From a virus: 52,018 nucleotides of DNA. Within the stretch, counting starts at the first letter, position 1. Each line of letters starts with the position of its first letter. The notes beneath the pieces are model-generated. The model ran no database searches, had not been told where the DNA came from, and was given only the letters and a program-made list of their open reading frames with translations. Both the position numbers and the translations under genes were made by a program. The stretch covers positions 1-52,018 of the IMG/VR virus record IMGVR_UViG_3300025051_000004. One strand, written 5' to 3'. Below are positions 1 to 23,982 of the stretch, piece after piece.

Positions 1-20
1 ATGCAACAGGGGGGTACTGA

Positions 21-36
21 AGGGGTCTATGCCCCT
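21..36 (-). terminator. GC-rich hairpin at the end of the leftmost gene
   Basis: On the minus strand AGGGGC-ATAG-ACCCCT-like arms form a short hairpin overlapping and following the stop codon (27-29) of the 97-aa gene. No clear T-tract follows before the window edge. It could be a weak terminator or part of a larger structure cut off by the window end. Confidence 0.3.
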
Positions 37-320
37 CCCCCCTCTTCAGATACAACACTATTTTCTACATCTTCTTCATAAATTACAAGTTTTTTATATA
101 AACCTATAGGATTTAAATCACAAATCCTATCAATTGTATCCCCCAGCTCAATTAAGTAGTCTTCCTCAGACAATTCTGTTGATGTTTTAGCTAGGCGGGC
201 TAAGTATTGTGATGTAAAGTATTGGTGATCCTCATCAAATCTCCGCCATTCATCCCATTGTTGTGATGGATTAAAAGGATTATCAATTGTGGTGAGGTAA
301 ATTGCTTTAATTTTATTCAT
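27..320 (-). CDS. Conserved small phage protein of unknown function (97 aa)
   Basis: I do not recognise a function. The N-terminus (MNKIKAIYLTTIDNPFNP, then DEWRRFDE) resembles small hypothetical proteins common in Firmicutes phages. The rest is acidic and helical, ending in an unusual EEGGGA tail encoded by a G-rich tract. The ATG at 320 has GGAGAAG seven to eight bases upstream, which supports the start. It is the last gene of the leftward operon, separated from the RNA polymerase-like gene by almost 400 nt of structured spacer, so it may be transcribed independently. Confidence 0.6.
   Translation of the reverse strand: MNKIKAIYLTTIDNPFNPSQQWDEWRRFDEDHQYFTSQYLARLAKTSTELSEEDYLIELGDTIDRICDLNPIGLYKKLVIYEEDVENSVVSEEGGGA
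30..47. repeat. Long-range inverted repeat, left arm (partner 693-710)
   Basis: TGCCCCTCCCCCCTCTTC here matches the reverse complement of 693-710 at 16 of 18 positions. The two arms enclose the 97-aa gene plus its leader spacer. The left arm lies in the last codons of that gene and the right arm just after the stop of the RNA polymerase-like gene. The extreme base skew (C-tract against G-tract) stands out in an AT-rich genome. Confidence 0.5.
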
Positions 321-712
321 AAAGCTTCTCCTTTCTCAAATTCTAAGTTTATTCTGATACTTTTAATCTTACCTAAGACTTCGTGTTTCTCCTAGCACGA
401 TGGTAGAAACAATGACGGGAGTATAGTACGAAGTTTCTCATACATGTTACACAATTAAACATTGTTATTAAAAGATCTTATCATTAATTTTTTAAAACGA
501 TGGCCGGTCTCATAACTTTTAGGAGGAGGAAGTCACTTTAGTATCTGAAACCATACTTAATAGGAATTAAACGGTAATACACTACACTTACAATTGAGAC
601 CGGCCATCAAGCCAATAGGTTATTAGTGGTTGGTTTCTATAACTATGGGGCTTTTATAACTTAAAGTCAATAGCCCTTTAGAACCCAATAAAGAAGCGGG
701 GGGAGGGGTAAT
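321..712. other. Structured 392-nt spacer without a gene
   Basis: I see no credible gene here. There is a perfect 14-bp inverted repeat GATGGCCGGTCTCA (499-512) / TGAGACCGGCCATC (595-608) with an 82-nt loop. A nested pair also exists: ACTTCGT (378-384) with ACGAAGT (428-434), and inside it GTTTCT (385-390) with AGAAAC (405-410). An AGGAGGAGGA run lies in the loop on the plus strand but has no start codon placed to use it. The spacer separates the RNA polymerase-like gene from the 97-aa gene, so a leader RNA, a processing or termination site, or a small RNA is plausible. None is proven. Confidence 0.45.
693..710. repeat. Long-range inverted repeat, right arm (partner 30-47)
   Basis: GAAGCGGGGGGAGGGGTA lies directly after the stop codon (713-715) of the RNA polymerase-like gene in the minus-strand sense and pairs with 30-47 (16 of 18). 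On the minus strand it reads as a C-rich run that could also mark the 3' end of the polymerase transcript. No T-tract follows. Confidence 0.5.
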
Positions 713-3337
713 TTAATTCTCATTCAATGCATCTAATAATCCGCTTGTTGATACCCCAAGAGATGCTGCAACTTCTGCCTGAGTGTAACCTCTACTTAAC
801 ATTGCCCGAGCCTTATTAAGTTTGGTGGGGGAGAATGTGGAAGAAGTTCTTGGTGTTGCATATTGTTTAACTTGATCAAGGGGTGTATTATTTAAAATCT
901 GCATTAAGAAATTATGACTTATTGCACCAGCTTGTATAGCTTCCCATTCCTTTGGCGAGATATCAATGGCTGTCTTTTTTGCATATTTTCTATATCTAGC
1001 CTCGGCAAGAGCTCGTGTTTTTACTTTCTTTAACTGATCCTTTGTCATATCTGGATTCTGTGTTTGCTTAGTTCGAATTACATGATTCGCTAAAAGTTGT
1101 GCCTGTCGTTCCCTTGGTTTATTTCCTATCGCGATACTTAATTTAGCTTTCAGGGATTCGACTTGTGTGGCATAAGTTTGTTTAGCAGATGGAGAATATT
1201 CTAAACGGGGGGTATTAACAAACTGAAGTCGTGCTTTATCACCCATATTTTTCATACCATTCGCATATTCAGCATAAATATCTTCCATTCTGGTTCCGGA
1301 ACTAAGTTTACGAGCATCATCCTCTTCATACATTTTTGTAGATTTTATTTTCTTATCAATGAGTTTTCCTGTTTTTGGATCAACATACGATTCTGGCGTG
1401 GTTTTAAATATCTTTTTTCCTGTTTTTGGATCAATAGAATATTCTGAACTTCGTTTATCAACTCGAATTTCGGATGAGGCACGAGATATAATAGTTGATG
1501 CCCCTTTTCGGGATCCACCCTGATATATCTCTTTTAAATCAGAAATATTGTTATCAATATAAGACTGTTTGTAATTTAATCCGTGTTTTTCGGCATCAAT
1601 AATAACCATTGAATGACGAACAGCCCTTGCAATTTCATCTTGAGAAGCCCCTTTAATGGTCATATCAGTGATTAAATTTGATATTTTTCCCATCTCAGTT
1701 TGTTTGCTTGTTTCTGAAAGCCGTTTCATTCCAGGATATTCAGGATATGCCAGTTTCGGATCAAAATCCGCAAGGCCTTTAATTGATGGTGAGGTTTTAA
1801 CTTGACCCTTCCCATTCGGAATAACAAGAACTGTATCTCCATCAAAGTCGGCCCCAGACAGTTTCTTTGCAACGCTTGGATGAATTACAACCGCATCCAT
1901 AGCATTTCCAAATATCGATTTCATTCCAGCATCATTATTATTAACGGTTAATTGTGGAATTTCAAAGGTTCCACCATGTGGATGCCGAATCAGAACCACC
2001 CGTTCACCATTAACATAATTAGGCGCATATATTTCACTTGCTTTAATATCATTTGATGGAAGAATTACATAATTTCCTTGTCGTGGAAGGGCAGCAGCTT
2101 TAAGATCAACCGCGGCCGAATCACATTCATCCGCAAAGGTTTGTAACATTTTTTGTCGAACTGTCGGATTTGTTAGGGCTAAAATTTCATCAAATTCTTC
2201 TTGTTTTTGTTTTAAAGCTAAATCAAGTTGTTGTTTTGCTAATGATGGCCGTTGTTTTGATAACATTTGAGAGGAAAGGGTTTTTGACCAAGTTGTCCAA
2301 TCACCTTCTTCATTCACAATATTTATTGGAGAAAGCTTTTCAGTTCCATCAGTATCAATGTATGTTTTTTGTCTGAATATAGAGCCAAATGGATTATCGG
2401 GATCATCTTTAATAGGTTTCATTGCACCCATTTTTCCAACATCTTGACTCTTGTTAGTATTAAATATCACATCAACACCATCAGGCATGTCATCTGAATA
2501 TATGGCCATTCCTTTTAAAAAATGAGTACCATCAACTCCAATGCGAACTTGTGCATAACTTGCTTCACCTAAGGAAAGATCTGATTTTCCGCGTCGAAGT
2601 TCTATAACTCCATCTTTTGCTTCGCCACCATCTTCCCGATAGCGAATACTAATACGATCTGAGGATATAGGAACCGGATTCTTTAAACTTTCCCAGGTTC
2701 GACCACCATCTCGTGTCCAATCGGCAATCGTTTGAATTTTATCCTGATTAGCATAAATCTCTTTATAAGTTACATCATCTTTTGTTAAGACTTTTATGGT
2801 GGTTGGTTTACCGGTTCCGACTTGAGTAACATTCACATAACTAATTTTATATCCTTCTTTTTGGAGCTCGGCGATGGCTGTATCTAATTTATATTTAGAA
2901 ACACCGATTTGATTTTCAGCTCCCGCGCCGACATCTAAATATCGTTTATTCTCAATTTGAGCGCGGAGCATATCGGCAGTCCGTTCAGTGATTAAAGCTC
3001 GCTCTTGCATAACTGGATCCAGTAGATTTCTAACAGAACTCTCATTAATTCCCATGCGTTCACCAATCGCAACGTTAGAATATCCTTTATCTTTAAGGCG
3101 CAATGCTTGCGCTGCATCAGCTTTTCTTTGTTCGGATTTCTCTAACGAAACCTCAGCTCGAAGTTGTGTTGTGGATATCCCCAAACCATCTGCTATCTCT
3201 TTTTCACTCATGCCCTTTGCTTTTAACTCTTTGATATGTCCACGCAAAGATCTGTCTCGCTGTTGAGGGTCGTCACCACTACCCCAAGGATATCTTCCTG
3301 ATCTTCGAGGTGTACCATAATGCTTTAATTCGCTCAT
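713..3337 (-). CDS. Single-chain DPBB RNA polymerase-like protein with N-terminal tag
   Basis: This 874-aa protein carries ADFDGDTVLVIP at 496-507, the metal-binding DxDGD loop of the double-psi beta-barrel in RNA polymerase beta-prime, YonO-like phage polymerases and QDE-1-type RNA-dependent RNA polymerases. Upstream, RHPHGG (451-456) and VVIHPSVAKKLSG (483-495) fit the segment before the loop. Downstream, MGKISNLITDM (549-559) and HSMVIIDAEKHG (575-586) resemble the post-loop region of QDE-1/RDR proteins. HTH-like segments lie near 43-62, 84-106 and 848-871. The N-terminus (LKHYGTPRRSGRYPWGSG, 4-21) is a tag-like motif recalling those of proteins encoded beside the terminase. GGAGG precedes the ATG. 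The gene is the last large one in the replication/recombination cluster. The fold assignment is fairly confident; the template, primer needs and virion location are inference. Confidence 0.7.
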   Translation of the reverse strand: MSELKHYGTPRRSGRYPWGSGDDPQQRDRSLRGHIKELKAKGMSEKEIADGLGISTTQLRAEVSLEKSEQRKADAAQALRLKDKGYSNVAIGERMGINESSVRNLLDPVMQERALITERTADMLRAQIENKRYLDVGAGAENQIGVSKYKLDTAIAELQKEGYKISYVNVTQVGTGKPTTIKVLTKDDVTYKEIYANQDKIQTIADWTRDGGRTWESLKNPVPISSDRISIRYREDGGEAKDGVIELRRGKSDLSLGEASYAQVRIGVDGTHFLKGMAIYSDDMPDGVDVIFNTNKSQDVGKMGAMKPIKDDPDNPFGSIFRQKTYIDTDGTEKLSPINIVNEEGDWTTWSKTLSSQMLSKQRPSLAKQQLDLALKQKQEEFDEILALTNPTVRQKMLQTFADECDSAAVDLKAAALPRQGNYVILPSNDIKASEIYAPNYVNGERVVLIRHPHGGTFEIPQLTVNNNDAGMKSIFGNAMDAVVIHPSVAKKLSGADFDGDTVLVIPNGKGQVKTSPSIKGLADFDPKLAYPEYPGMKRLSETSKQTEMGKISNLITDMTIKGASQDEIARAVRHSMVIIDAEKHGLNYKQSYIDNNISDLKEIYQGGSRKGASTIISRASSEIRVDKRSSEYSIDPKTGKKIFKTTPESYVDPKTGKLIDKKIKSTKMYEEDDARKLSSGTRMEDIYAEYANGMKNMGDKARLQFVNTPRLEYSPSAKQTYATQVESLKAKLSIAIGNKPRERQAQLLANHVIRTKQTQNPDMTKDQLKKVKTRALAEARYRKYAKKTAIDISPKEWEAIQAGAISHNFLMQILNNTPLDQVKQYATPRTSSTFSPTKLNKARAMLSRGYTQAEVAASLGVSTSGLLDALNEN

Positions 3338-3341
3338 ATGA

Positions 3342-3899
3342 TTATTCCTCCGCTTTTAATATGTCCTCGATCCTCTGATCGAATTCTTTGATTTTAGCCA
3401 TAATATACAATATTTCTTCAGCTTCAGGATTATGGACTAGAACCTCATTATACTGATACAAACGCAATTCAATTTCAATATCAGTTGGTTGAATTCCATA
3501 TTCAAGACAAAATATAGCAGCATAAACCTCAAGTTGTTTAATAGAGGCTTTTGTGGTTCCGGTTTTTAAATCATGAATTCTTAGCATGTTATCTCGAAAA
3601 CTAATTGCATCGGCCGTTCCAAAACAATGGGGTGAAAAATATAAAACTTTTTCTGGTTCCATTTTATAACCAATACCATCATTAACGAACATATTAAGTG
3701 ACTTTGCAATTTTTGGCAGTTTTATGCGGTGTCCAATTAAGGAGGCCGCAATCTCATGAACTTCTACACCTTGTTGAACTGCCTGCCATGCTAAATATAC
3801 CCGCTCGAGTTTATCTCCATCATAATTTACCCAATGATATTTAGATGGAGAAAGAAACGCGTGTATTCCATTAAGTTTTGAGTGATCGTTCCATTTCAT
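3342..3899 (-). CDS. RecB/Cas4-like PD-(D/E)XK exonuclease
   Basis: The 185-aa protein has the RecB-nuclease pattern: a histidine in GVEVHEIA (about 44-51), GTADAISF (D97), RIHDLKTGT (D110 and K112) and the downstream glutamine in KQLEVYA (Q122). In this family these residues bind metal and cut DNA, usually as 5'-3' exonucleases in phage recombination or end processing. It overlaps the end of the VRR-NUC-like nuclease gene by 29 nt and is followed 4 nt later by the RNA polymerase-like gene, so all three are probably co-translated. It lies in the replication/recombination cluster, which supports a repair role. Confidence 0.75.
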   Translation of the reverse strand: MKWNDHSKLNGIHAFLSPSKYHWVNYDGDKLERVYLAWQAVQQGVEVHEIAASLIGHRIKLPKIAKSLNMFVNDGIGYKMEPEKVLYFSPHCFGTADAISFRDNMLRIHDLKTGTTKASIKQLEVYAAIFCLEYGIQPTDIEIELRLYQYNEVLVHNPEAEEILYIMAKIKEFDQRIEDILKAEE

Positions 3900-4161
3900 C
3901 TAAAATCTTCTCCTCGTTTTCTGGAAATACAAATGCTGCATAAGCCATTTGACCATATTTACTAACATAATAATCTTGATTTGGGCGATGAGGAGCATCT
4001 TTATCACGTTTTGTTTCTAACATAGCCCAATGATTATTATATAAAACTAACACATCGGGGATTGCTTGAATATAATGAGGATCATTGAGAATTACCTCTG
4101 CCCCTGGTAAACGTGTTTTAATCCGTTTTATCAAACCGGTTCTGTATTTACTTTCATTCAT
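3871..4161 (-). CDS. VRR-NUC / Holliday-junction-resolvase-like nuclease
   Basis: The 96-aa protein reads MNESKYRTGLIKRIKTRLP then IPDVLVLYNNHWAMLETKRDKDAPHRPNQ. PD (35-36), ETK (49-51) and Q62 fit the compact PD-(D/E)XK VRR-NUC fold seen in phage resolvase-like nucleases. The start is the ATG at 4161, which has AAAGG five bases upstream. A longer reading to 4191 has no good ribosome binding site and runs towards the promoter. It sits between an SF2 helicase and a RecB-like nuclease. A conserved promoter-like element at 4230-4253 lies just upstream, so this gene may begin its own transcript. Confidence 0.7.
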   Translation of the reverse strand: MNESKYRTGLIKRIKTRLPGAEVILNDPHYIQAIPDVLVLYNNHWAMLETKRDKDAPHRPNQDYYVSKYGQMAYAAFVFPENEEKILDEMERSLKT

Positions 4162-4229
4162 GATAACCTTTCTTTGCCAAAAAGGACACAAAAATATACC
4201 ATAAGTAATGGCATATTTCCTTCTCCTCT

Positions 4230-4253
4230 ATTATAGGCAATGTTTTTAATGCG
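4230..4253 (-). promoter_or_regulatory. Promoter-like CGCAT-N13-TATAAT element
   Basis: In the 66-nt gap ahead of the nuclease genes the minus strand reads CGCAT, 13 nt, TATAATAG. The same spacing recurs at five sites between 22.1 and 24.6 kb. TATAAT is a perfect -10 hexamer. No good TTGACA lies at the usual distance; the conserved upstream block is CGCAW. Confidence 0.6.
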
Positions 4254-4256
4254 AAC

Positions 4257-5447
4257 TTAAAGAGCAGTAAATCGATTTTCATTAAACTTTTTTTTCGTTT
4301 TCAATGCTTTATCAATTGCCAAATCAATAATGGATTTACTCATTAATTTGTAATAATATAAATCTGTAAACGGTGTATCTAATCGATCAATTCGGCCAGC
4401 AGCCTGAGTCATAATACGATACGAGTAATTTTGTGAAAAGAAGACTATTGTGTCGGTTTCGGTACAATTCCAACCTTCAGCTCCAGCCATATATTGAACA
4501 AAATATAACCATGAATCTGCAGATGGAACTAGATCGTGTTTGTGACCATTCCATTCACCACTAACAATATTATTTTTTTTCGCAAAATCTCTAAGAGTAT
4601 CTAACTCATAATTAAAATTATAAAAAACAATTAACTTGTGATGTCTGGTCCAAAGTGATTTAAGTTTGTCTAACCGGTCTGGATCAGAGTTTGCTAACTT
4701 CCGTAATAAATAGCACAGCTTTGAAATGTCACGAATTGGTTCGTTATCATAAATATCCCAGCGATTTGTCATCAGAATCTTTTGTTGAGTTTCATCAAAA
4801 TTACAAAATATAGTCTCATAATGAGATACCGTGTTGCGAATAAAGTGCATCTGAATGGTTACTAAATCCCGTAAATGAATTAATTTCGAAACTTGTAAAT
4901 ATCTTTCAACTTTTGGAAATTTGCTAAAACGACTATATACTACATGATTTCTAATAAAATCTGTTCTATTTTTATAAAAGCCATTAGCAATAAATACAGG
5001 AATTAGGTCCATCCAAGTATCGGCTGGAGTCGCACTTAATAAAATCCATTGATTTTTTTTAGTAATTTTTAAAAAGGATTTTACCCAAGTTCCTCCACCA
5101 ACAACACGCTGTTCATCAAATATAAAGAATGCATCTTCTACAGTTGTATACTTTTGAATATTATTCCAACTGTCAACCGCTGTTATTTCTAATGGAATAT
5201 GAACGGCCTCATCTATCCAATCCAATGTGTCTCGTTTTCTAGCTGTGGTAATGACGTAAAGTTTTTTGTTAATCTTCATTGGAGAGAATGAGTCGCCCTT
5301 ATGTCTAGGAATTTTGCCTTTCCCAACTTTTTCATAAAAATATGAAAGTGCAGTAAGGGTTTTTCCTGAGCCGACCCCACCAACAAGGATCGACCCAGGA
5401 CTTAATCTCTCTATGGCGTCAGATTGATGGTCATAGAGTCTAAGCAT
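4257..5447 (-). CDS. SF2 DNA helicase/translocase
   Basis: This 396-aa protein has the superfamily 2 motif series: a Walker A loop GGVGSGKT (23-30), a motif II variant FDEQR (110-114), motif III LLSATPAD (136-143) and motif VI QAAGRIDR (348-355). VFYNFNYEL (274-282) matches the motif IV region of SNF2/DEAD-type phage helicases. It is a compact core with no large extra domains. It would use ATP to move on or remodel DNA. It is encoded between the SSB-like protein (3 nt gap) and two nucleases, a layout typical of phage replication-recombination blocks. The exact substrate is not evident. Confidence 0.85.
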   Translation of the reverse strand: MLRLYDHQSDAIERLSPGSILVGGVGSGKTLTALSYFYEKVGKGKIPRHKGDSFSPMKINKKLYVITTARKRDTLDWIDEAVHIPLEITAVDSWNNIQKYTTVEDAFFIFDEQRVVGGGTWVKSFLKITKKNQWILLSATPADTWMDLIPVFIANGFYKNRTDFIRNHVVYSRFSKFPKVERYLQVSKLIHLRDLVTIQMHFIRNTVSHYETIFCNFDETQQKILMTNRWDIYDNEPIRDISKLCYLLRKLANSDPDRLDKLKSLWTRHHKLIVFYNFNYELDTLRDFAKKNNIVSGEWNGHKHDLVPSADSWLYFVQYMAGAEGWNCTETDTIVFFSQNYSYRIMTQAAGRIDRLDTPFTDLYYYKLMSKSIIDLAIDKALKTKKKFNENRFTAL

Positions 5448-5450
5448 TTA

Positions 5451-6002
5451 CTACTCTTCTATGATTAAACGACACGCACCATCACGATATTCATAACCTG
5501 GTGCACATACTGCCGCTTGTGCCGAATCTGGTGGATTAATATATTTCTTTTCCCATGGATCTTCCTGAAGAGTTACATACATCGTTTTTAAATATGCCTT
5601 AACTCCATCCTTACCATGAACATTATAATTATACGGTCTAACCGTTACATCGACTCGCTCAATATCCGCCCAATCTAAAATACTTACATCTTCTTCTCGT
5701 AAATTGGTTTGTTTTCCCTCGGAATTAACGAGAATAATCTTTGGTGGATAGTAACTATATTGAACCCGGATGGACAAAATTGGTTGTGCTTCTTCGGCCG
5801 GATCGCGTGGATCTAACCACCGAATGTTCCAGCCCTCTTCTTCTAATGCTTTTGCAACATTTATATCATCCAAAAAGACAACAAAATTCCGATTACCTTG
5901 TGGATTATATTGACCTTCCTTTCCTGAAAAGTTTCTGAAACCAATTCTTGCATTTGCAATATTAATGTTCTCTGTAACGCGTGGGGATTGTTTTTTAGCC
6001 AT
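5451..6002 (-). CDS. Probable single-stranded DNA-binding protein
   Basis: The 183-aa protein starts at the ATG at 6002 (MAKKQSPRVTENINIANARIG), with AAAGGAG seven bases upstream. A longer in-frame reading would overlap the polymerase stop and lacks a site. The pattern IGFRNFSGKEGQYNPQGNRNF, then ADIERVDVTVRPYNYNV and GVKAYLKTMYVT, looks like a beta-rich OB-type phage protein that I associate with SSB-like genes next to polymerases. The C-terminus carries two cysteines (CAPGYEYRDGAC) and the acidic end IIEE. Position between the replicase and the helicase supports the role. The family assignment is from memory. Confidence 0.55.
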   Translation of the reverse strand: MAKKQSPRVTENINIANARIGFRNFSGKEGQYNPQGNRNFVVFLDDINVAKALEEEGWNIRWLDPRDPAEEAQPILSIRVQYSYYPPKIILVNSEGKQTNLREEDVSILDWADIERVDVTVRPYNYNVHGKDGVKAYLKTMYVTLQEDPWEKKYINPPDSAQAAVCAPGYEYRDGACRLIIEE

Positions 6003-6015
6003 ATCTGTCTCCTTT

Positions 6016-9000
6016 TTATTTTTCGGCAAACTGTTCAAAGTCACCAAATTTATTAATTGTTTGAATAGCATCATCTACAAGCTCATTGAAATATCGATAG
6101 TCAATACTATTCTCTTTTTCTAAATTACTAACAACTTCGGCTTCAAGCCAACGGTATCCTTTTGTAGCACTTGCGGCATAATATTTATCATTGGTTTTGC
6201 GATATAAAAGACCACCGCCGCTACCATCCATCACTGGACAAAACTCACCAGCTCTTCCAACGAATCTATAATTATGTTCTTCTTCTGAAAGATTTTCATT
6301 CAAATCTAAATATAAAGCAGAATTTCCAGTAACAGTTCTAACTTCACATAAATCCTTAAATGTTAATGGTTCTTTACTAAATATAGTTTTAAAAACATAT
6401 GGATGCTGAAATTGTGCTCCTGTTGCGGTCCATTTTCCAATATTTGTCTTCTTGGTAGAATAAGCATATTTTGCTATATAAACGGCATCATTAACAAGAC
6501 AAATCTTTTCATATGTTGCTTCATGTTCAAAGTCATAACCATACTGTTTCGCAAAATCTTTACAGAAATTAATAATATATGAATCGGCATCTGGAATTTT
6601 TATTGAATCTGTCTTAATGTGTGCAACCTTATAACCCTGTTTTTGGACCGCATCTTGTAAAGTTCGCATAAATAAAGCGCCCCTTAATGCTACAATATTG
6701 TTGACATTTTTTGGGTGTTTCATAATATTTTCAAAACGAGCTGAAGTTAATCCATAAGTTGAATTCAAAGCAATCTTTAATGCATAAGACAAATCATCCA
6801 TAATCGAATCATCACTGACATACTTAAGAAGTTTTCCTCCAAATATATTTTTTAATGCCTCCTTATCTCCGTGTTTAATAGCAACGCGAGCATCTTTAAT
6901 ATCACTATATGCATTTGTATACTTTCCAAAATAATTCATTTGGATTAATGATGTGGGGTGCATAGATGCAATATCAATAAGAGCCACATTGTTATAAATG
7001 CCGGGTTCAGCATATACATACCCACCAAACCCAATATCATCACCACGGTAAATATTTCGAAATTGTTTACCATCAATCTGTTTCCATTCATAACCAGGAA
7101 ACGTTTCACTTAAATCTGTATACACGAGTTCTGGATTTTTATCCTCTCCAAATATAAGCCTCGTTACCAATTGATTTGTAGAATTATTAGGTGTCATCCC
7201 AGTTAATTCGGCCAGAATAAGACGGGCTGCCCAATCAGCTTTTCGATCCTGAAAAACGGCTTCCGTAATAATAACATCATTAACACAATATTCACCGGCC
7301 ATCTTCCATTTCTCTTCTGGTACTGGCTCATCCCATGGAAGCGCAAATTCATTATGATGCAAACCCAATTCAATCCCAAACTTTTTAAGACTTTGTTTTT
7401 TATTTGAAAAATCATAAACATCGGTATAAGATAAATTATACGCTTCTCTAAATAAATATTGTGTTCCATTGCTTGAGACAATATTACTACTTAAGTTAAA
7501 TAATTGTTCATTATTGTAACCAATGTAACGCGCATACAAAATATGATTGTCATACCTGCGATTATTAAATCCAATTAATTTAAATTTAAATAATTCTTCA
7601 ACATCTCTCGGTGCTGGATTTATCATAATAACCGGTTTATGATTATCACCCATGAATTTATACACAATTATAAATAAATTTGGAAAGACCTCAACATCAT
7701 AAAATACATAATTCTCATTATCATAATTACTTGATGGGGTGCTTTCGGCCGCAGATACAAATTTCATTTGGGATACTAAACCAACACAATATTCAGATTG
7801 ATTTGTCGAGTTCATAGCAAATGTGAGAATTCTTCCTCGCATATCATGAACATCATATATCAAACCAGAATCATATGTATCGTCCAATATCTTTTTAATA
7901 AAATCAATACTTGGTTTGGTTGCTGGGTGAATTTCTTTATTTAGATTTCTTATGATTAGATCACGCAGGGCTTTTTCTGTTTTAATTGCCTGCTGATTCA
8001 TCATCTTATTTACTCCTTTCTTTAAAGGCAAACCTGACGAAATATGAGCAATTGGTATCTCATTGCATAAACTTAATTGACGCCTCAAACTACTATTACC
8101 AACGAATACCTTAATCTCAATTCCTTCTTCATAAAGTCTGCTAAGTTGTTCAACATCACCATCATAAATATAATGAAGATGAACACCAGAACCACTCTTA
8201 CTAAATTCAGCATAAGTTTCGGGCCATTTACTAGCAGCTAATAAATTAAGATTCCGATCTTTTTCACCAATATCATTACGAAGATCAAAATCTATTACAA
8301 TATGATGCTTTTCGGGTTGTACATAATGTAATTTAGATGTATCCAAATCAGAAAGCTTTGTATTAACATTATCCCATTTCAAATATGGTATACCATACTG
8401 ATTAGCATATTGAGCAGGTCTATCAGCAAAATATGTATCAATAATAGAGACATTCTTATCTAAAACAAGTGTAGATAATTCTTCTGGTTCTGGTATTAAT
8501 GTGGCTCGACTATTATCGATTGAATCTGAATTAAAATTCCAATATACAGATCTCACAGCTTTACCATCTATTCTTTTTTGTTCAGCGTATTCCTTAAAAT
8601 AAGCTTTAAGTTCTTCACGAAAACTGTGTCTTGGTAAAATATATCCAACACCATTTTCTTGACAAAATTCCTTGTACATAGTATACGCTTGTTTCAATTG
8701 TAGAAAGTCTACATCATTTAGAAAGTAAAAATAATTTTCTTCAACAAAGTTAAATATAACATTTGTCTCAAACATCATCTCTTTTGGACGATAAGAATCA
8801 TAATATTTTTTTCCCATTTCTGTATAAATATCAATACACTTTTGAGCTATGGCACCCAATTCAAAATCTATTTGATCCATAACACTATCATATTCTTTTG
8901 GAGAAAGTCGACGACCACTTGGACGTACATCAATAAGTCGTCTTGTAATCCCGGATTTACTATCGGTAATTTTAACTGGTTGATTTGTTCCCATAAATAA

Positions 9001-9828
9001 AAAGCAATTAATCGGCATCGCATACTGGGATTTATGTTTTTCATTAATTATTACCTCTTCATGGGAGATAATAGAATTTAATGTACTATTATCACTAATC
9101 TTACTTAAATCACCATCATGCTGGATTGCAACTAGTGGATTATTCTTAAAAACCTCAGTTCCAAAAATGTTATTATTACCAACAAGTGCTTTGGCATTAA
9201 AGGTAATGTAATATCCTTGAACAAGTTTTTGTAAAATGTTTAAAAAGGTTGATTTACCACTACCAGCCTCTCCATAGAGAACACAAAACTTTTGAATCTT
9301 TTTACTATCACCAGTTAAAACCGCCCCAATAGACCATTCTAATTTTTGTCGTTCCTCATCATCATATAGAACGGACATTAAACGATCGTAACTTTTTGTA
9401 GATCCAGCCTCGAGAGAATATGGTAAATGATGAGTGGAATAGCTAGATTTTGTAACGCGGTCATTTGCAAATAAAATCTTATCATCAATTGGATGATAAT
9501 TATCAGGCATACTTTTTATGAATTTAATCCACTGGTTCCATACACCGCTAGAGTAACTAGCCAATGTTCGGATATTTACATTCTTTTCTTCTGGGTGATG
9601 CTTCTCCTTATACTCAAATAATTCTTTATCAACTAAACGAACTACTTCCATTTCATCCGTTAACCACTTACTCTGATCAGAATCCCAAATACCATAAAAT
9701 GAATGACCTCGGACCATTAGGTCTCGACTCTTACAAACCTTGAAATCTGGATAAATTTCAACCAAACCTGCTGGACGTGCTTTACTATTATTAATAGCTA
9801 CTTTTTCAACAATTTCTAAAAAATCCAT
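6016..9828 (-). CDS. Fused SF3 helicase / AEP-like primase / family B DNA polymerase
   Basis: This 1270-aa protein joins three replication activities. Residues about 150-350 are a D5-like SF3 helicase: Walker A GEAGSGKST (186-194), an acidic Walker B-like stretch near 232-241, sensor GTNQP (280-284) and an arginine-finger-like GITRRL (293-298). Residues about 500-600 resemble an archaeo-eukaryotic primase, with IDFDL (512-516) and SGSGVHLHY (545-553). Residues about 705-1270 are family B polymerase: exonuclease I DVE (711-713), exonuclease II NNRRYD (755-760), exonuclease III YCVND (847-851), motif A DIASMHPTS (952-960), motif B KIALNSTYG (1018-1026) and motif C KTDS (1072-1075). Helicase-before-primase is the reverse of the usual primase-helicase order. 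A strong AGGAGG-type site precedes the ATG, and the repeat-rich putative origin lies just upstream. Confidence 0.9.
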   Translation of the reverse strand: MDFLEIVEKVAINNSKARPAGLVEIYPDFKVCKSRDLMVRGHSFYGIWDSDQSKWLTDEMEVVRLVDKELFEYKEKHHPEEKNVNIRTLASYSSGVWNQWIKFIKSMPDNYHPIDDKILFANDRVTKSSYSTHHLPYSLEAGSTKSYDRLMSVLYDDEERQKLEWSIGAVLTGDSKKIQKFCVLYGEAGSGKSTFLNILQKLVQGYYITFNAKALVGNNNIFGTEVFKNNPLVAIQHDGDLSKISDNSTLNSIISHEEVIINEKHKSQYAMPINCFLFMGTNQPVKITDSKSGITRRLIDVRPSGRRLSPKEYDSVMDQIDFELGAIAQKCIDIYTEMGKKYYDSYRPKEMMFETNVIFNFVEENYFYFLNDVDFLQLKQAYTMYKEFCQENGVGYILPRHSFREELKAYFKEYAEQKRIDGKAVRSVYWNFNSDSIDNSRATLIPEPEELSTLVLDKNVSIIDTYFADRPAQYANQYGIPYLKWDNVNTKLSDLDTSKLHYVQPEKHHIVIDFDLRNDIGEKDRNLNLLAASKWPETYAEFSKSGSGVHLHYIYDGDVEQLSRLYEEGIEIKVFVGNSSLRRQLSLCNEIPIAHISSGLPLKKGVNKMMNQQAIKTEKALRDLIIRNLNKEIHPATKPSIDFIKKILDDTYDSGLIYDVHDMRGRILTFAMNSTNQSEYCVGLVSQMKFVSAAESTPSSNYDNENYVFYDVEVFPNLFIIVYKFMGDNHKPVIMINPAPRDVEELFKFKLIGFNNRRYDNHILYARYIGYNNEQLFNLSSNIVSSNGTQYLFREAYNLSYTDVYDFSNKKQSLKKFGIELGLHHNEFALPWDEPVPEEKWKMAGEYCVNDVIITEAVFQDRKADWAARLILAELTGMTPNNSTNQLVTRLIFGEDKNPELVYTDLSETFPGYEWKQIDGKQFRNIYRGDDIGFGGYVYAEPGIYNNVALIDIASMHPTSLIQMNYFGKYTNAYSDIKDARVAIKHGDKEALKNIFGGKLLKYVSDDSIMDDLSYALKIALNSTYGLTSARFENIMKHPKNVNNIVALRGALFMRTLQDAVQKQGYKVAHIKTDSIKIPDADSYIINFCKDFAKQYGYDFEHEATYEKICLVNDAVYIAKYAYSTKKTNIGKWTATGAQFQHPYVFKTIFSKEPLTFKDLCEVRTVTGNSALYLDLNENLSEEEHNYRFVGRAGEFCPVMDGSGGGLLYRKTNDKYYAASATKGYRWLEAEVVSNLEKENSIDYRYFNELVDDAIQTINKFGDFEQFAEK

Positions 9829-10104
9829 GTTCTTGTGAAGGCCTCCTTTCTTGAAGAGATGGTACTGTCACAATGTTGCATCTGTTTTTGCCTTTATTTA
9901 TATAATTTTTTTAAAAAAAATTTATAGCGTAAACTGAAATTAGCCGTGATTTTGTGACATTTCATACAAAATATAGCATTTTTCTTCAATTTACGGGTGG
10001 TTTTACCATCTTTTTAGTCAAGACGCTGTCACGGTTTTGTAGCATTTTTGCTTCTGTCACACTTTTAAAATGCTACATTTCAAAAAACGTGACAAAAAAC
10101 GTGA
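9829..10104. other. Putative replication origin / operator region with iteron-like repeats
   Basis: No gene fits here. TGTCAC or its complement GTGACA occurs at 9866, 9954, 10027, 10055 and 10089, with GTGACT at 10101. TAGCATTTTT occurs at 9974 and 10040, and the inverted TGCTACA at 10071. An AT-only tract of about 35 nt (9891-9925) could be a melting element. TGTCAC and TAGCATTTTT are paired 11-20 nt apart. Because it sits directly upstream of the replicase gene, it could be the origin, the operator/promoter of the replication operon, or both. Confidence 0.5.
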
Positions 10105-10638
10105 CTAATCTTCATAGTTTTTTGACAAATATAACATCATTTGATACCAAATCTCAACCTGATTTTGAGGCTGATGTATATTTCTTCTCCAGCCATGGAT
10201 TGGAAATATCCCTCCAAGGCCATTAGCAGAATATTTACGATCTAACCAATTCGTTAGTATCATATCGAGTTCATAGTTTTGCGCGTCCGTTAAAGCTGTA
10301 AAGTTATCGAACTTTAGTACACCTAAATTTCTTAACATTTCCCAAAATAAATCTACATAGGTCTCACTAAATCTTCCAGCATCTAACTGGTATTCCATTT
10401 TTCGACTCAGTGCTATTAACATTTCCAATATTCTACATGGTCCGAATTTATAGTCTGGTAAATCACTTGATTCATCTCGTAAGAATATACCATCTTTGGC
10501 TCGGTTTTGATCATTTGGTAATATACTGTAGTATTCTTTTTTCCATAGACGCTCTAAAAGAACTTCGAACTCGCTGCTATCTTCAATTCTAACCATCTCT
10601 TTAAGATGATTTAAATATCTTGTTTCTTCTTTGTTCAT
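10105..10638 (-). CDS. Conserved phage protein next to the origin (177 aa)
   Basis: I do not recognise a domain. The protein is helical and mixed-charge. Its C-terminal block, GLGGIFPIHGW followed by QVEIWYQMMLYLSKNYED, resembles hypothetical proteins encoded near replication genes in Firmicutes phages. The ATG at 10638 is preceded by an AAAGGAGG-type site. The gene ends inside the repeat cluster at 10101-10107 and precedes the fused replicase, so a role in initiation or in binding the repeats is possible but unproven. A hairpin terminator lies upstream at 10672-10696, suggesting the gene may start a new transcript. Confidence 0.6.
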   Translation of the reverse strand: MNKEETRYLNHLKEMVRIEDSSEFEVLLERLWKKEYYSILPNDQNRAKDGIFLRDESSDLPDYKFGPCRILEMLIALSRKMEYQLDAGRFSETYVDLFWEMLRNLGVLKFDNFTALTDAQNYELDMILTNWLDRKYSANGLGGIFPIHGWRRNIHQPQNQVEIWYQMMLYLSKNYED

Positions 10639-10671
10639 AGCGTGTTACAGTCCTCCTTTCTTTAGAGAAAC

Positions 10672-10696
10672 GAAAGGGGCTTTGTAGGCCCCTTTC
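10672..10696 (-). terminator. Hairpin terminator-like structure
   Basis: On the minus strand GAAAGGGGC and GCCCCTTTC flank a seven-base loop, followed by GTTTCTCT. The stem is strong but the T-tract is poor. It lies in the 76-nt gap after the acidic membrane protein gene and could partly separate the accessory operon from the replication operon. Confidence 0.6.
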
Positions 10697-10714
10697 AAAT
10701 ATAATTGGTTGCGA

Positions 10715-11521
10715 CTATTCATCCTCTTCATCAGCAAGCGGAATTTGATTATAAGCAACTTTATTGCTTTTCTTGCGTGTATAAGCTGCTTTCTTTTTTT
10801 CGCCTTTGCGCTTCAATTCCGCATCTGCTTGAATGAATTCGTCGCTCATTGTATCCATTGCTTCTTTTTGGCGAGCGATCTGTCGAAACCGTCTTTCCGT
10901 ATCAGTTTCCATCTTAATGGCAACCTCCTCATTATATGATTTACTTAATGAATGAATTTCATAATCGATTTCGAGTTGATCGTTTCTTACAAATGTCATT
11001 GTTTTCTTCTTTAGATCTTTAAGCCACTGCTCGCCAAGTTGATCTTCCGGATGAACATATACGCGATCATTTACATCACAAACAACATCATCAAAGCGAT
11101 AGTAATATAAATCAATCTTATCGTAATTGTTGTCAAAGATGAAATCCTCATATCCGATTAAAAATGGTTCCGGCTGCTTCTCGGGAAGTTCTTCTACTTG
11201 CTCTACTTCTTCTATCTCTTCTTCCGGTTCTTCTTCCTCATCATCTTCAAGAATATCTTTTGCGGTTGCTCGCCGAGCCACTTCGCTTGGACTTGGTTTT
11301 ACATATTCTCGTGCGAGTTTTCGATATGCCATTTTTTCATCGACTTCGGCCACTGCTTCTTCGGATTCATACTTCTTTTGGTAATAGGATTTAACGTCTT
11401 CAATTTCATCATGAGCAATTTCTTGCCAGTGTGCCTCGGCAATTTTACTTGCGATTAAATATCCAAGTCCGCCCCCAAGCGTGAATGCAATTGCAATTGG
11501 TAATAAAACTTTTTGTTCCAT
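10715..11521 (-). CDS. Membrane-anchored acidic phage protein (268 aa)
   Basis: The N-terminus (LLPIAIAFTLGGGLGYLIA, about 6-24) is one hydrophobic segment typical of a membrane anchor. A helical stretch, then a highly acidic low-complexity run (DEEEEPEEEIEEVEQVEELPE, about 93-113), a folded-looking middle part (FLIGYEDFIFDNNYDKIDLYYYR) and a basic coiled-coil-like tail follow. Similar single-anchor proteins occur in the accessory regions of Firmicutes phages without known function. It would sit on the inner membrane face with most of its mass in the cytoplasm, or outside if the orientation is reversed. It is followed by a hairpin terminator. Confidence 0.65.
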   Translation of the reverse strand: MEQKVLLPIAIAFTLGGGLGYLIASKIAEAHWQEIAHDEIEDVKSYYQKKYESEEAVAEVDEKMAYRKLAREYVKPSPSEVARRATAKDILEDDEEEEPEEEIEEVEQVEELPEKQPEPFLIGYEDFIFDNNYDKIDLYYYRFDDVVCDVNDRVYVHPEDQLGEQWLKDLKKKTMTFVRNDQLEIDYEIHSLSKSYNEEVAIKMETDTERRFRQIARQKEAMDTMSDEFIQADAELKRKGEKKKAAYTRKKSNKVAYNQIPLADEEDE

Positions 11522-11533
11522 TTTTATTCTCCT

Positions 11534-11776
11534 TTAGAATATAGCCCGGTTAATTGTTTCAACATAGGGATCAATTTTTATTTGTAAATCATTGGTTGGT
11601 GCCTTACGATAGGCTTTGAAGATTTCCATTAAACTTGGAAAATATTCGGTTTTTCCATGGCCTGCCACGCGCCACATTCTGCGATCCACCAAGGTTCCAC
11701 GATCAAGTTTGTAGCCCAATATACCCAAAAGTTTTACTAATAATGTTTTGGGTATGCGATGTTGGTGTCTTTTCAT
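11534..11776 (-). CDS. Small basic protein of unknown function (80 aa)
   Basis: No domain is recognised. It is basic at the start (MKRHQHRIPKTLLVKLLGILGYK) with WRVAGHGKTEYF in the middle, which suggests a small nucleic-acid- or protein-binding fold but does not identify one. Its start overlaps the stop of the preceding 61-aa gene as ATGA (11773-11776), so it is translationally coupled. An AGGAG-type site lies upstream. Confidence 0.55.
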   Translation of the reverse strand: MKRHQHRIPKTLLVKLLGILGYKLDRGTLVDRRMWRVAGHGKTEYFPSLMEIFKAYRKAPTNDLQIKIDPYVETINRAIF

Positions 11777-11958
11777 GCTTTCTTCTCCTCTATAAAATAG
11801 ATCATACTACGAACAATATCTAAAAGAATTTTAACAACGTCTTTAATAGATATCCCTCTTTCAATCGGAACATTCAATGATCGTTCTTTATCAAAATAAA
11901 ATGTTAAAGAATAACCCGAATCATTAATTTCATAAAGTGTGATTTTCTTTAAAATCAT
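11773..11958 (-). CDS. Small protein of unknown function (61 aa)
   Basis: No family is recognised. A beta-rich N-terminal half (ITLYEINDSGYSLTFYFDKE) is followed by a helical C-terminus (KDVVKILLDIVRSMIYFIEEKKA). The ATG at 11958 follows AAAGGAGAG and the end overlaps the next gene by 4 nt, so the reading is supported by context, not similarity. Confidence 0.5.
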   Translation of the reverse strand: MILKKITLYEINDSGYSLTFYFDKERSLNVPIERGISIKDVVKILLDIVRSMIYFIEEKKA

Positions 11959-11972
11959 GAAATCTCTCCTTT

Positions 11973-12260
11973 TTATACATAGTCATATTGTTCTCGATAT
12001 TCCCAATATATTTCAACTAATTCTACGTTATTGTTGTGAACACTTACATATTCATCTTTTAAATGATCTTGAATATGGGCTAAGATGGTTTCTCGTTGCA
12101 ATGCTGTAAATCCAAAATCTTTAAGATCAAAATGCTCTACACCATCTTCATCAAGCCATAGATTCACATCTCGTCTAAAATATACGGCAATACCACTATC
12201 GGGTGGATACAACGAATCAAACAACTTTGTTAACATAGCCCATATCTCCGCTTGGGACAT
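11973..12260 (-). CDS. Conserved small protein of unknown function (95 aa)
   Basis: No domain is recognised. The sequence is acidic and aromatic-rich (DLKDFGFTALQRETILAHIQDHL, VELVEIYWEYREQYDYV). The start codon overlaps the stop of the preceding gene as TAATG at 12260, the compact junction typical of this operon. It lies in the accessory block between the putative nucleotide enzymes and the replication genes. Confidence 0.55.
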   Translation of the reverse strand: MSQAEIWAMLTKLFDSLYPPDSGIAVYFRRDVNLWLDEDGVEHFDLKDFGFTALQRETILAHIQDHLKDEYVSVHNNNVELVEIYWEYREQYDYV

Positions 12261-13034: not shown

Positions 13035-13496
13035 CTAACTTTTTCCTGGTGGTTCATATCGACCAAAGCGTTTATCTTCAGCAATTTCTTCTGCGGTTTT
13101 TTCTTTAGCAATTGGTAATGATGAATTTTTCCCACTCCCCCATGGATATCGTCCAGACGTTGGTTTTTCTTCTATTTCTGGTTGGGATGCTAATTCTTGT
13201 TGTTCATTATACAGACAAATAGCAATAAGAGAATATACTGACAAGTCCATCAACGTATCAATTATTGATTCGCCTACCTGATCGTTTGTTTCATCCTTGG
13301 CGAGATTTGTAATCCGGATAAATTTATCACTCATACGTACTAAGCATCCTTTAAATGCTGAAACCCCTATGGCTTCAGACATTCGAAAATTTGCCCATGG
13401 ATCTGACGATCCTTTTCCGGCATACCCATCATTTTTTCTTCGATGAAGATCACGAATATCGTCTAAGAGTTTAATAAATTCTTTACTTTCTGGCAT
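13035..13496 (-). CDS. DUF1599-like nucleotide-metabolism protein carrying a RYPWGSG tag
   Basis: The ATG at 13496 (MPESKEFIKLLDDIRDLHRRK) is preceded by AAAGGAG, whereas the longer in-frame reading overlaps the 5' nuclease. Residues 1-95 fit the DUF1599/Nmad1 helical fold: LHRRKNDGYAG (18-27), DPWANFR (32-38), VRMSDKFIRI (53-62) and ESIIDTLMDLSVYSLIA (76-92). Such proteins are tied to nucleotide modification or MazG-like hydrolysis. The C-terminal tail contains SGRYPWGSG (114-122), the same nine residues as near the N-terminus of the RNA polymerase-like protein. Finding a tag on a metabolic protein is unusual and suggests shared localisation or a shared partner. Confidence 0.65.
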   Translation of the reverse strand: MPESKEFIKLLDDIRDLHRRKNDGYAGKGSSDPWANFRMSEAIGVSAFKGCLVRMSDKFIRITNLAKDETNDQVGESIIDTLMDLSVYSLIAICLYNEQQELASQPEIEEKPTSGRYPWGSGKNSSLPIAKEKTAEEIAEDKRFGRYEPPGKS

Positions 13497-13552
13497 TTTA
13501 CTTCTCCTTTTAAATATGATTAGTCGCGGCAACTCCGCGAATCTTTTGGTGG

Positions 13553-14467
13553 TCATTTTCTATAGTAAGCAGCATAAAGCATCTTCATAGCCAATACAAT
13601 TTCATCATAAGCTTCTGTATCTTTACCATAGTACTTATAAATATAGTTTTCACTTCGACTTAATGTTAAATCAAATCGCAGTCGATCGCCGACATTTGGA
13701 ACATCTAGATTATAATCCAGTTCTATAAGGTCAAGGGCTTTTTGAAACTCGGGATCATCAAACGGAACCGTTCCTTCTAAAATATGTTTGCGCGCAGTAA
13801 CAGGACCGATTCCTTGAACTCCGCTAATGTCGTCCGACTTGTCGCCAACCATTGCTTTGTATAACGGATATTCCTTTGGTGCAAATCCGAATTCAACCTC
13901 AAAAAGTTTGGGGGTATAAAATACTCCAGGATTTTTGTAGACATAGCATCGTTTATACTTTAATAATTGATAAATGTCTTTATCGTTTGAGAATATAACG
14001 GTGGTTGTAGTTGTTGGTGAGGGTTCCATTCGCGGATCATCTAATTTACATACTGCGTTTGCAATACTGGCAATAACATCATCTGCTTCTGCACCATCCC
14101 GACTAACTATTCGGCTATCCATATCGTCTAGAATAAGAGCTAAAATCTTTCGAAAGTTCCTAAATATTTCGTGAGTTACAGGAATTCGCGTACTTTTATA
14201 GGTTTGATCGCGTTTGGTTCTTTCAAGTTTTTTTCGACTCTCTCCGGCAAATATAATTTCAACTGGAACCCCAGTGGGATTCGCTCGCTGAATACATAAC
14301 CGGAGAGAATCTAGAAAACGCAAAACCGGGAGCCATGGACGACCTTCAGATCCATTTAAACTACTAAAATATGATCTGTATAAAATGTTACTATAATCCA
14401 CTAATAGGAGAACCCTCTTCAACTCTTCGCCTTCTTCTAATGCTGGTAGGATTGGTGAGGGTTTCAT
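13553..14467 (-). CDS. FEN-like 5'-3' exonuclease
   Basis: The 304-aa protein has the PIN-like nuclease core and H3TH element of the polymerase I 5' nuclease family: LLVDYSNILYRSYF (21-34, D24), DGAEADDVIA (124-133), FSNDKDIYQLL (159-169) and VGDKSDDISGVQGIGPVTA (207-225). These acidic residues bind the two metal ions; the last motif grips duplex DNA. It would remove RNA primers and flaps. The usual polymerase part is absent, so it works with the separately encoded family B polymerase and DNA ligase. AAAAGGAG precedes the ATG. Confidence 0.9.
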   Translation of the reverse strand: MKPSPILPALEEGEELKRVLLLVDYSNILYRSYFSSLNGSEGRPWLPVLRFLDSLRLCIQRANPTGVPVEIIFAGESRKKLERTKRDQTYKSTRIPVTHEIFRNFRKILALILDDMDSRIVSRDGAEADDVIASIANAVCKLDDPRMEPSPTTTTTVIFSNDKDIYQLLKYKRCYVYKNPGVFYTPKLFEVEFGFAPKEYPLYKAMVGDKSDDISGVQGIGPVTARKHILEGTVPFDDPEFQKALDLIELDYNLDVPNVGDRLRFDLTLSRSENYIYKYYGKDTEAYDEIVLAMKMLYAAYYRK

Positions 14468-14478: not shown

Positions 14479-15444
14479 TTACATAAGATCCAGAATTTCG
14501 CCATCAACATTAAAGTCTAAAAGAATTGCATTATCAACCTTAGATGACAAATACCCACCACGACTTGCAATCAGATCGTCAAGTTCAGGACCGAAGGAAA
14601 TATAATTATCACCAGCGCCATCCCAGACCCAACCAACCAACTGACCAGCCTTTGTTCGAGGAAAACCTAATTCATCATAGATATCGTTTAAAAATAGATG
14701 ACCACGTGCTTTTAAATGTTCGTTTGCCCACCGATTCTTAATAATTAAATTTGAAAGATTATAATCAAATTGAGGACACCATTGGCTACTACCAGTATAG
14801 GTTCCGGTTTCAGTATCGTATTCTTGCTCAGCAAACATTCGAGCATACATACTTGCCGGTTTTCCATTTCTTAGACGTTGAACTTGAATTGTCTTTTTAT
14901 GAACTTTTCCATCTTCATCAACAACATCGACTTTAGCTTTTTCATATACAGTGTCATAAGCAAAATGGAATTCCTGTTCTTCACCGAGTTCATCAGCAAC
15001 GCGTTTCCTATATGCACCAAAGGCTTCCTGAGCCATTTTATAAGCACCGGCAAGAGCTACATTTCGTTTCGTTAAAATATGTTGTCCTCCAAGTAAACAT
15101 CCAATGGACGCTGTTCCTAATAAAGCTACAGGCCAATATGCTTTTCCCAGAGACTTCGCTGTATGAAAATATGTTTGAATTGTATCTTTTCGTGCATCGG
15201 CTTCCGTATAATCTGGAGCATGTTCGGTTTTTGCTCGTTCTACGGCACTTAACATTTGATTATGACTTTCAATAATACCGGGCGCATGTTTATATGTTTT
15301 TGTTGCTACTAATATAACCGTTGCAATAACACCTCCAGTACCAACCACCGCCAATATAGTCGGGGCATGTTTTCCCAGTTTTAACAAAGCTCTACTACCA
15401 TGCTTTGTTACTTTGACTCCTAAATTACTAACTAATTCGTTCAT
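14479..15444 (-). CDS. DUF6353-like membrane protein (copy 1)
   Basis: The 321-aa protein has a hydrophobic stretch at about 27-50 (HAPTILAVVGTGGVIATVILV), another near 103-123 (YWPVALLGTASIGCLLGG), and the soluble pattern KRNVALAGAYKMAQEAFGAYRKRVADELGE that I associate with DUF6353 proteins of Firmicutes phages. The C-terminal half is soluble. Function is unknown; two membrane segments place it in the cell membrane. A second, shorter relative lies at 22796-23527. A structured leader (15473-15596) lies upstream. GGAAGGAG precedes the ATG. Confidence 0.65.
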   Translation of the reverse strand: MNELVSNLGVKVTKHGSRALLKLGKHAPTILAVVGTGGVIATVILVATKTYKHAPGIIESHNQMLSAVERAKTEHAPDYTEADARKDTIQTYFHTAKSLGKAYWPVALLGTASIGCLLGGQHILTKRNVALAGAYKMAQEAFGAYRKRVADELGEEQEFHFAYDTVYEKAKVDVVDEDGKVHKKTIQVQRLRNGKPASMYARMFAEQEYDTETGTYTGSSQWCPQFDYNLSNLIIKNRWANEHLKARGHLFLNDIYDELGFPRTKAGQLVGWVWDGAGDNYISFGPELDDLIASRGGYLSSKVDNAILLDFNVDGEILDLM

Positions 15445-15472: not shown

Positions 15473-15596
15473 TTACAAAGGTATGAAAAAACATAAGAGA
15501 TGGGCGATCTTCCTAGTTAGTCATTTAAATATGACAATACCTGGTTGATATCTTTCTTCCCAATGGAACCCATCTCTCTCATAATACCCTTTGTAA
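15473..15596. other. Structured leader between the 52-aa gene and the DUF6353-like gene
   Basis: Nested inverted repeats can fold this spacer: outer TTACAAAGGTATG (15473-15485) with CATAATACCCTTTGTAA (15580-15596, small bulges), inner AGAGATGGG (15496-15504) with CCCATCTCT (15569-15577), and a small hairpin GTCAT/ATGAC (15520-15535). It lies in the 5' leader of the DUF6353-like gene and downstream of the 52-aa gene. A processing, attenuation or stability role is possible. It lacks tRNA features. Confidence 0.45.
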
Positions 15597-15609
15597 TTCT
15601 TGCGAAATT

Positions 15610-21796: not shown

Positions 21797-22117
21797 TCAT
21801 GTTACTTCGACAAACTCGCCATCTATTACATCGTTCTGATTATTTTGCATCTCTTTAAATAATTCTTTCGTAATAACAACAGATTCAACAAACGACTCGA
21901 CTACTAACTCGACTTGATCACCAACTACATTACCGACTGCTACGGCAATTGCATAGCTACCAATAACTACTAGGGCGTTTTCTGACTTCCCTAAAGTTTC
22001 TGGTATAACTTTTTCAATCGCATAGCGGATAATTTTCTTGGCTCCAAATCCAGCAACTAATCCAGTTGTAAGTTTAACTGCATTATATACGGCTTTCCTT
22101 TTTAATTCCGATTTCAT
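21797..22117 (-). CDS. Small membrane protein (106 aa)
   Basis: Two hydrophobic segments (VKLTTGLVAGFGAKKII near 14-30; ALVVIGSYAIAVAVGNVVG near 48-66) are followed by a helical, acidic C-terminus (NDVIDGEFVEVT). The gene has its own cassette: the conserved promoter-like element at 22152-22175 upstream and a clean terminator at 21748-21783 downstream. GGAG precedes the ATG. Function unknown. Confidence 0.65.
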   Translation of the reverse strand: MKSELKRKAVYNAVKLTTGLVAGFGAKKIIRYAIEKVIPETLGKSENALVVIGSYAIAVAVGNVVGDQVELVVESFVESVVITKELFKEMQNNQNDVIDGEFVEVT

Positions 22118-22151
22118 TTCTAATCTCCTTTTTTAATATGGTTTAAGTTTC

Positions 22152-22701: not shown

Positions 22702-22732
22702 AATCCTTCTCCTTTTCTTTTATAATACGTTC

Positions 22733-22756: not shown

Positions 22757-22795
22757 AATTGGATTACTCGGTTAGAAATCCAATATCTAATAGAA

Positions 22796-23951: not shown

Positions 23952-23982
23952 TTCAATCTCCTTTTAATAATTTTATGGTTTC

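Follow-up and report, generated by a model that had tools for sequence, protein, structure and literature searches.

Among the relatives of the cellular RNA polymerases, the single-chain, two-barrel (double-psi) RNA polymerases (RNAPs) are the simplest, and their way of finding promoters is still an open question. The closest overall folds to the phage polymerase described here are Neurospora QDE-1 and plant RDR2, which are also single chains. They differ from it in being eukaryotic RNA-interference enzymes with another biological role and no N-terminal tag, and promoter reading is, to our knowledge, not a known mode of action of either. YonO of Bacillus phage SPbeta is a processive, DNA-dependent single-chain phage RNAP with an aspartate triad, and it transcribes late genes from a promoter stated to be undetermined (PMC5467207). 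In contrast to the present enzyme, YonO carries DNDGD rather than DFDGD and has no such N-terminal tag. The Thermus siphophage P23-45 likewise encodes single-chain, two-barrel RNAPs, the virion enzyme vRNAP (the N-terminus of gp96) and the non-virion enzyme nvRNAP (gp64) (PMC10770324). P23-45 thus has two RNAPs where the present phage has one, and its virion RNAP is untagged and forms a fusion with the tape measure (PMC10770324); beyond the barrel, these enzymes share scant sequence similarity with the present polymerase. The virion RNAP gp66 of phi14:2, from the crAss-like phages, is a further single-chain, two-barrel enzyme (PMC10770324). It differs in having a very large gene (45265–51807) and another phage order, with no sequence match here; the annotation in its record is marked as based on MS/MS proteomics.

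The stretch of DNA analysed here (the window) comprises one virus record, 52,018 bases long, with a siphophage-type genome in which all recognised genes lie on the minus strand, as do all genes and motif copies located below. These include the terminase (42046–43791), the portal (39422–40702), a fused protease-capsid protein (37575–39404), and the DNA polymerase (6016–9828). The RNA polymerase gene (713–3337, 874 amino acids) is read from an ATG, and the plus strand at this place is full of stops. It belongs to an endonuclease-exonuclease-polymerase operon (3871–4191, 3342–3899, and 713–3337, respectively) and is the final large gene ahead of the right genome end, where it is followed by a small conserved terminal gene (27–320; PHROG 4303). 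In Lactococcus phage 1706 and Rhodococcus phage ReqiPoco6, too, the genome ends with a small gene behind the polymerase, and in ReqiPoco6 this same two-gene end abuts an annotated 3' cos overhang. The 392 nt that separate the polymerase gene from the terminal gene (321–712) hold no ORF of 60 amino acids and include an inverted repeat (GATGGCCGGTCTC / GAGACCGGCCATC). A tRNA search found none.

The preliminary description had listed a DFDGD loop, an N-terminal tag, two downstream motifs, and three helix-turn-helix (HTH) segments without giving the strand, and all of these are found in the minus-strand protein. The catalytic loop DFDGD occupies residues 497–501 (1835–1849) and is invariant in an alignment of 83 relatives with 43–62% identity. 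The tag, HYGTPRRSGRYPWGSG, spans residues 6–21 (3275–3322) in a segment that is predicted to be disordered (pLDDT < 50 at residues 1–28). Within the tag, H6, G8, R11, S13, G14, R15, Y16, P17, W18, G19, S20, and G21 either do not vary or show at least 90% conservation in the 83 relatives. Conservation of DFDGD and of the tag residues across these relatives indicates that the motifs and the tag are not due to chance. All three HTHs, two N-terminal and one C-terminal, have Pfam matches. HTH 1 (residues 32–56; 3170–3244) matches HTH_38 (PF13936, E = 5e-7) and is helical in the structural model, while HTH 3 (residues 838–867; 737–826) matches HTH_3 (PF01381, E = 1e-6, over residues 844–867) and PF02796 (E = 1e-4). 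HTH 2 (residues 71–106; 3020–3127) matches HTH_23 (PF13384, E = 1e-10) and the sigma-70 region-4-like PF08281 (E = 3e-6); PF08281 also matches 18 of 20 relatives, a likeness of their N-terminal HTH to sigma region 4. The motif MGKISNLI at residue 549 and HSMVIIDAEKHG at residue 575 fall in two highly conserved segments, residues 542–561 and 566–585 (MGKISNLITDM and HSMVIIDAEKH; 1583–1714), which are helical in the model and form a candidate bridge-helix/trigger region.

The fold of this protein points to a two-barrel polymerase. An AlphaFold2 model built from the 83 relatives has a pLDDT of 80.7 and a pTM of 0.73, with the tag-bearing residues 1–28 disordered. Foldseek comparison of this model with the PDB gave 17 hits at E ≤ 0.001, all of them to QDE-1 (E = 4e-10), the Thermus phage gp64-type RNAP (2e-6), or RDR2 (2e-6). 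The TM-scores are modest (0.23–0.35), as one would expect of a multi-domain enzyme aligned as one rigid piece. The QDE-1 fold match covers about 900 columns and the invariant lysines K275, K296, and K307 are present, a correspondence at the level of the overall fold. Furthermore, hhalign aligns residues 423–509 with P23-45 gp64 and residues 409–509 with gp96 around DxDGD (E = 8e-4 each), and this profile alignment puts DFDGD on the catalytic loops of both enzymes. The first barrel region, DPBB-A, can thereby be placed at about residues 421–507 (1817–2077), and the order of the elements together with the fold match suggests that residues from about 244 to 343 (2309–2608), which form strands in the model and contain the three invariant lysines, are probably the second barrel, DPBB-B. 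The earlier double-psi-barrel assignment, which a lack of any structural match would have undone, has gained matches to QDE-1, gp64-type RNAP, and RDR2. The likeness then proposed to the cores of both QDE-1 and YonO stands for QDE-1; profile comparison with YonO gave nothing significant, and membership in the YonO group was rejected (hhalign probability 2%, 19 unrelated columns). An earlier model from 20 sequences had RNAP largest subunits as all of its best 50 PDB matches, but at E ≥ 0.02, and searches of PDB sequences, whether started from the protein or from a 20-row profile, returned HTH matches only. Taken together, the modelled fold and the DFDGD triad support the window protein being a single-chain, two-barrel (double-psi) RNA polymerase.

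The combination of polymerase, HTH repeats, and tag, regarded as new in the preliminary description, is in fact that of a large catalogued family. PHROG 4291, named 'RNA-dependent RNA polymerase', matches the window polymerase over its full length (1263 bits, residues 3–873), and tblastn found the polymerase in 250 of 50,697 phage records, all below 60% identity. The hosts are mostly Arthrobacter, Gordonia, and Streptomyces, with further members in Lactococcus 1706-type, Rhodococcus, Curtobacterium, and Faecalibacterium phages, and prophage copies are frequent in Lachnospiraceae and other Firmicutes. Most of the tblastn relatives are annotated as an HTH protein. The Pfam RdRP family PF05183 matches the window polymerase below its cut-off (residues 488–589, E = 6e-4) and reaches E ≤ 0.01 in 11 of 20 relatives (best 1.2e-5). 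The family is thus catalogued already, with labels that go no further than RdRp, HTH protein, or structural protein; on the polymerase reading, 'HTH protein' and 'RNA-dependent RNA polymerase' are public labels in need of correction. Nothing connecting the tag and promoters to PHROG 4291 or to 1706 orf75 was found in the literature or records searched, and literature searches on tag peptides, a PHROG 4291-type virion RNAP, and the TATAATGA motif returned nothing relevant. In six genomes (G003, G018, G060, G069, G078, and G082), short extra ORFs elsewhere in the same genome match pieces of the polymerase (the HTH part, residues 131–214, or residues 535–665) and could be accessory factors or decayed copies. 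In three others one gene is matched in two adjacent pieces inside one open frame (the polymerase in G002 and G077, the DNA polymerase in G005), which suggests insertions such as inteins.

Phages that carry this polymerase have in common a gene-strand motif, TCGCAnnAATTACAnnCCCTATAATGA, of about 30 bp, made up of three blocks spaced by about one helical turn. A 27-nt repeat at five intergenic places of the window is an instance of this motif, which also emerged independently from Gordonia phage Secretariat and Lactococcus phage P162; variants of it are present in 1706 and Oengus. Across 25 genomes, sites with at most two mismatches from TTACAN5TATAATGA number 256 in the sense orientation and 10 in antisense, and the upstream TCGC block is conserved at 85–90% in these sites even though it lies outside the selection pattern. 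Only 25% of sites fall inside ORFs, compared to 86% at random; they lie a median of 27 nt ahead of a start codon with a ribosome-binding site, and 68% of them have a start codon no more than 40 nt away, as against 11% of random positions. A position weight matrix (PWM) trained on other genomes, with the window left out, finds seven sites on the gene strand of the window, with scores between 38.8 and 8.6 (the next-best score is −4.1); the opposite strand has no site (best 0.3). Three of these precede ORFs: 22146–22177 (35.1; ORF 21797–22117), 22727–22758 (19.0; ORF 22423–22701), and 23977–24008 (38.8; ORF 23748–23951). Further copies lie at 15575–15606 (repeat family D4, 30.4), 24242–24273 (20.6), and 24515–24546 (31.6), and the weakest, at 4224–4255 (8.6), stands ahead of the endonuclease-exonuclease-polymerase operon. 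Downstream of the motif lie small non-structural genes as well as the polymerase operon. A site 0.9–1.2 kb before the polymerase occurs in 54% of 37 viral loci, some from genomes that gave other sites to the PWM training, compared to 0–14% of loci in other bins. Held-out prophage-type loci have a site 0.8–1.25 kb upstream of the polymerase in 30 of 48 cases, with 69 sense and 0 antisense sites in total. The DNA genome and the family-wide DNA promoter motif suggest that the enzyme is probably DNA-dependent, against its database label.

The motif and the polymerase also occur together. In IMG/VR, TTACANNCCCTATAATGANA is present in 90 stretches versus 4 for a scrambled version, and the polymerase is encoded by 30/33 and 20/21 (together 50/54, counting polymerase copies cut by contig ends) of the contigs that carry the motif and measure 40 kb or more. 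The tag or the motif was seen without the polymerase in G004, G005, G017, G050, G066, G067, and G083, none of which is proven to lack it; the G017 sequence breaks off directly behind the DNA polymerase gene, before it reaches the expected position of the polymerase. Because the phages concerned are related to one another, joint inheritance could keep tag, polymerase, and motif together with no direct contact between them, and this is the chief rival of a functional link. In Faecalibacterium phage Oengus (L227), six copies of a diverged promoter-like repeat, ACGCGAAAAATACAGCCTCCTTTATGGA, accompany a diverged polymerase, which offers a natural test of promoter-polymerase co-variation. With at least 250 phage records and a sharp candidate promoter, the family makes promoter recognition by this class of enzyme directly testable.

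The TATAAT of the motif is a perfect sigma-A −10 box, and host RNAP may consequently use the motif. According to this explanation, the motif would be an unusual extended −10 promoter, perhaps served by a phage activator, and the polymerase would do other work such as primer or RNA-templated synthesis, in keeping with the family label 'RNA-dependent RNA polymerase' and with RDR2 and QDE-1 being close folds. Several observations make this improbable. The motif columns of the 25 genomes contain no −35 TTGACA 16–18 nt before TATAAT (they read tttcTC) and no TGn, whereas TCGC and TTACA are conserved where sigma-A does not read. The same motif occurs in phages of both Lactococcus and Gordonia, yet on the same host species the box differs, being TATAGT in 1706 (11 sense, 0 antisense) and TATAAT in P162 (11:0, plus one TATAGT), a difference that fits recognition by a phage enzyme better than by a host sigma factor. 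Additionally, no sigma factor was detected among about 30 window proteins scanned. In window positions 1–12000, canonical sigma-70 sites are no commoner than in shuffles. Recognition of the motif by the phage polymerase would not call for a sigma factor if its built-in, sigma-region-4-like HTHs are, as is likely, the promoter readers; three blocks about one helical turn apart would suit tandem HTHs and a melted AT box.

The T4 capsid targeting sequence is a short N-terminal peptide found on unrelated head cargo proteins, and the tag described here would resemble it in this respect while differing in sequence. Three other window proteins carry the tag family DUF7211 (PF23847) in the form HYG..GMKWG: one that adjoins the portal (40788–41198, LKHYGVSGMKWGIRK, E = 3e-8), a second at 41170–41967 (LAHFGVLGMKWGVRK, E = 7e-11), and one that adjoins the terminase (43797–44441, ITHYGIRGMKWGIRN, E = 3e-6). 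The full 25-residue DUF7211 has no above-cut-off match on the polymerases; three of their N-termini match 10 positions, below cut-off. The HMM weakly matches the HYG half alone of the polymerase tag, which is thus a variant. With a weight matrix of the HYG half, polymerase N-termini score a median of 17.2 versus a 99th percentile of 8.3 in 961 control N-termini, and the polymerase therefore probably carries a variant of the DUF7211 tag. DUF7211 occurs in 242 of the 50,697 phage records, with the same counts as the polymerase in Arthrobacter (95), Gordonia (55), Streptomyces (54), Curtobacterium (7), and Microbacterium (4). Among IMG/VR contigs of at least 40 kb, 15 of 18 tag-bearing ones have the polymerase and 24 of 26 polymerase contigs have DUF7211. 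DUF7211 is an N-terminal tag found almost only in phages with this polymerase.

After tag masking, 267 complete tagged proteins of related loci fall into 107 clusters, so the tag is a module on unrelated proteins; clustering with the tag unmasked gave a single cluster and was discarded. Where Pfam domains are recognised behind the tag, they include GNAT acetyltransferase, a papain-fold glutamine deamidase toxin, Barstar, and DUF6883, and these tagged proteins may together be effectors and immunity proteins that the phages inject. Two DUF7211-type tags occur in one protein in L072 (21106–22290), Secretariat gp15, and 1706 orf7, as if two tagged proteins had been fused. In the window, a DUF1599-like, nucleotide-related protein (13035–13556; weak PF07659 match) has the polymerase-type tag, SGRYPWGSG, near its C-terminus, so the N-terminus may not be the sole position at which the tag works. 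If the tag is a general head-cargo address in Gram-positive siphophages, it would account for more than 100 orphan protein families and offer a means of loading proteins into such heads.

Phage 1706 provides an indication that the polymerase is packaged. In its record (EU081845), orf75, a full-length tagged polymerase of 1029 amino acids, was deposited as 'structural protein' and was renamed RdRp later by RefSeq. The same deposited label is given to orf7, with its two GMKWG-type tags. These are the sole tagged proteins of that phage, and the label stands on 11 of its 76 genes (2/2 tagged, hypergeometric P = 0.02). As orf75 lies far outside the head-tail module, a position-based label is unlikely; a 2008 paper on phage 1706 reportedly used SDS-PAGE and mass spectrometry on virions. 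ReqiPoco6 carries the annotation 'similar to 1706_gp75 structural protein'. By analogy with 1706, the polymerase is probably carried inside the virus particle. The 1706 label would also suit an inactive or non-transcribing relative retained as a structural head protein, a very improbable explanation since DFDGD, the lysines, and the post-barrel helices are invariant or nearly so in the 83 relatives and would be needless in an inactive protein.

Against packaging, a protein of about 100 kDa must pass the siphophage tail, and the gene lies in the replication operon, away from the late operon. Its place beside the exonuclease and helicase genes would fit a non-virion polymerase like YonO or P23-45 gp64, the latter among the closest folds, which would be made early by host RNAP and then read the motif, its tag binding the replisome, the portal, or another partner. 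This alternative is considered unlikely given the deposition of the 1706 homologue as structural, the kinship of the tag with portal-proximal DUF7211 proteins, and the motif on the polymerase's own operon, which favours a polymerase present from the start.

The packaged polymerase that we favour would act in a simple cycle. First, the tagged polymerase would be loaded into the head together with the other tagged proteins. Next, it would enter the next cell with the phage DNA and read the ~30 bp promoter ahead of the small early genes. Finally, it would also read the promoter of its own operon, giving positive feedback. The preliminary description had offered a packaged polymerase acting early and a promoter-reading polymerase as two options; these are compatible and have separate support, the 1706 label with the tag for the former and the family-wide motif for the latter, and we infer both. 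That the enzyme is the phage's own transcriptase, a packaged, self-amplifying, promoter-specific, DNA-dependent, single-chain, two-barrel RNAP whose activity, recognition, packaging, and timing we infer, is reasonably likely. For the broader proposal, the chances are about even: hundreds of siphophages of Actinobacteria and Firmicutes would share a sigma-independent system in which the tagged polymerase is packaged with tagged effectors via a DUF7211-type cargo signal, injected, and directed by its own HTHs to the 30-bp promoter, including that of its own operon. No description of a tagged polymerase and promoter as a working unit common to hundreds of Gram-positive phages was found.

Two further features of the window were noted. 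The early-gene region holds two paralogues of PHROG 2152 (function unassigned; 14479–15444 and 22796–23527). The protein encoded at 46731–48629 contains some 15 copies of a 23-residue tandem repeat (THEG.SDISVSSELTVSGSV), which correspond to 69-nt repeats in the DNA at 47065–48111, and is probably a virion surface or fibre protein.
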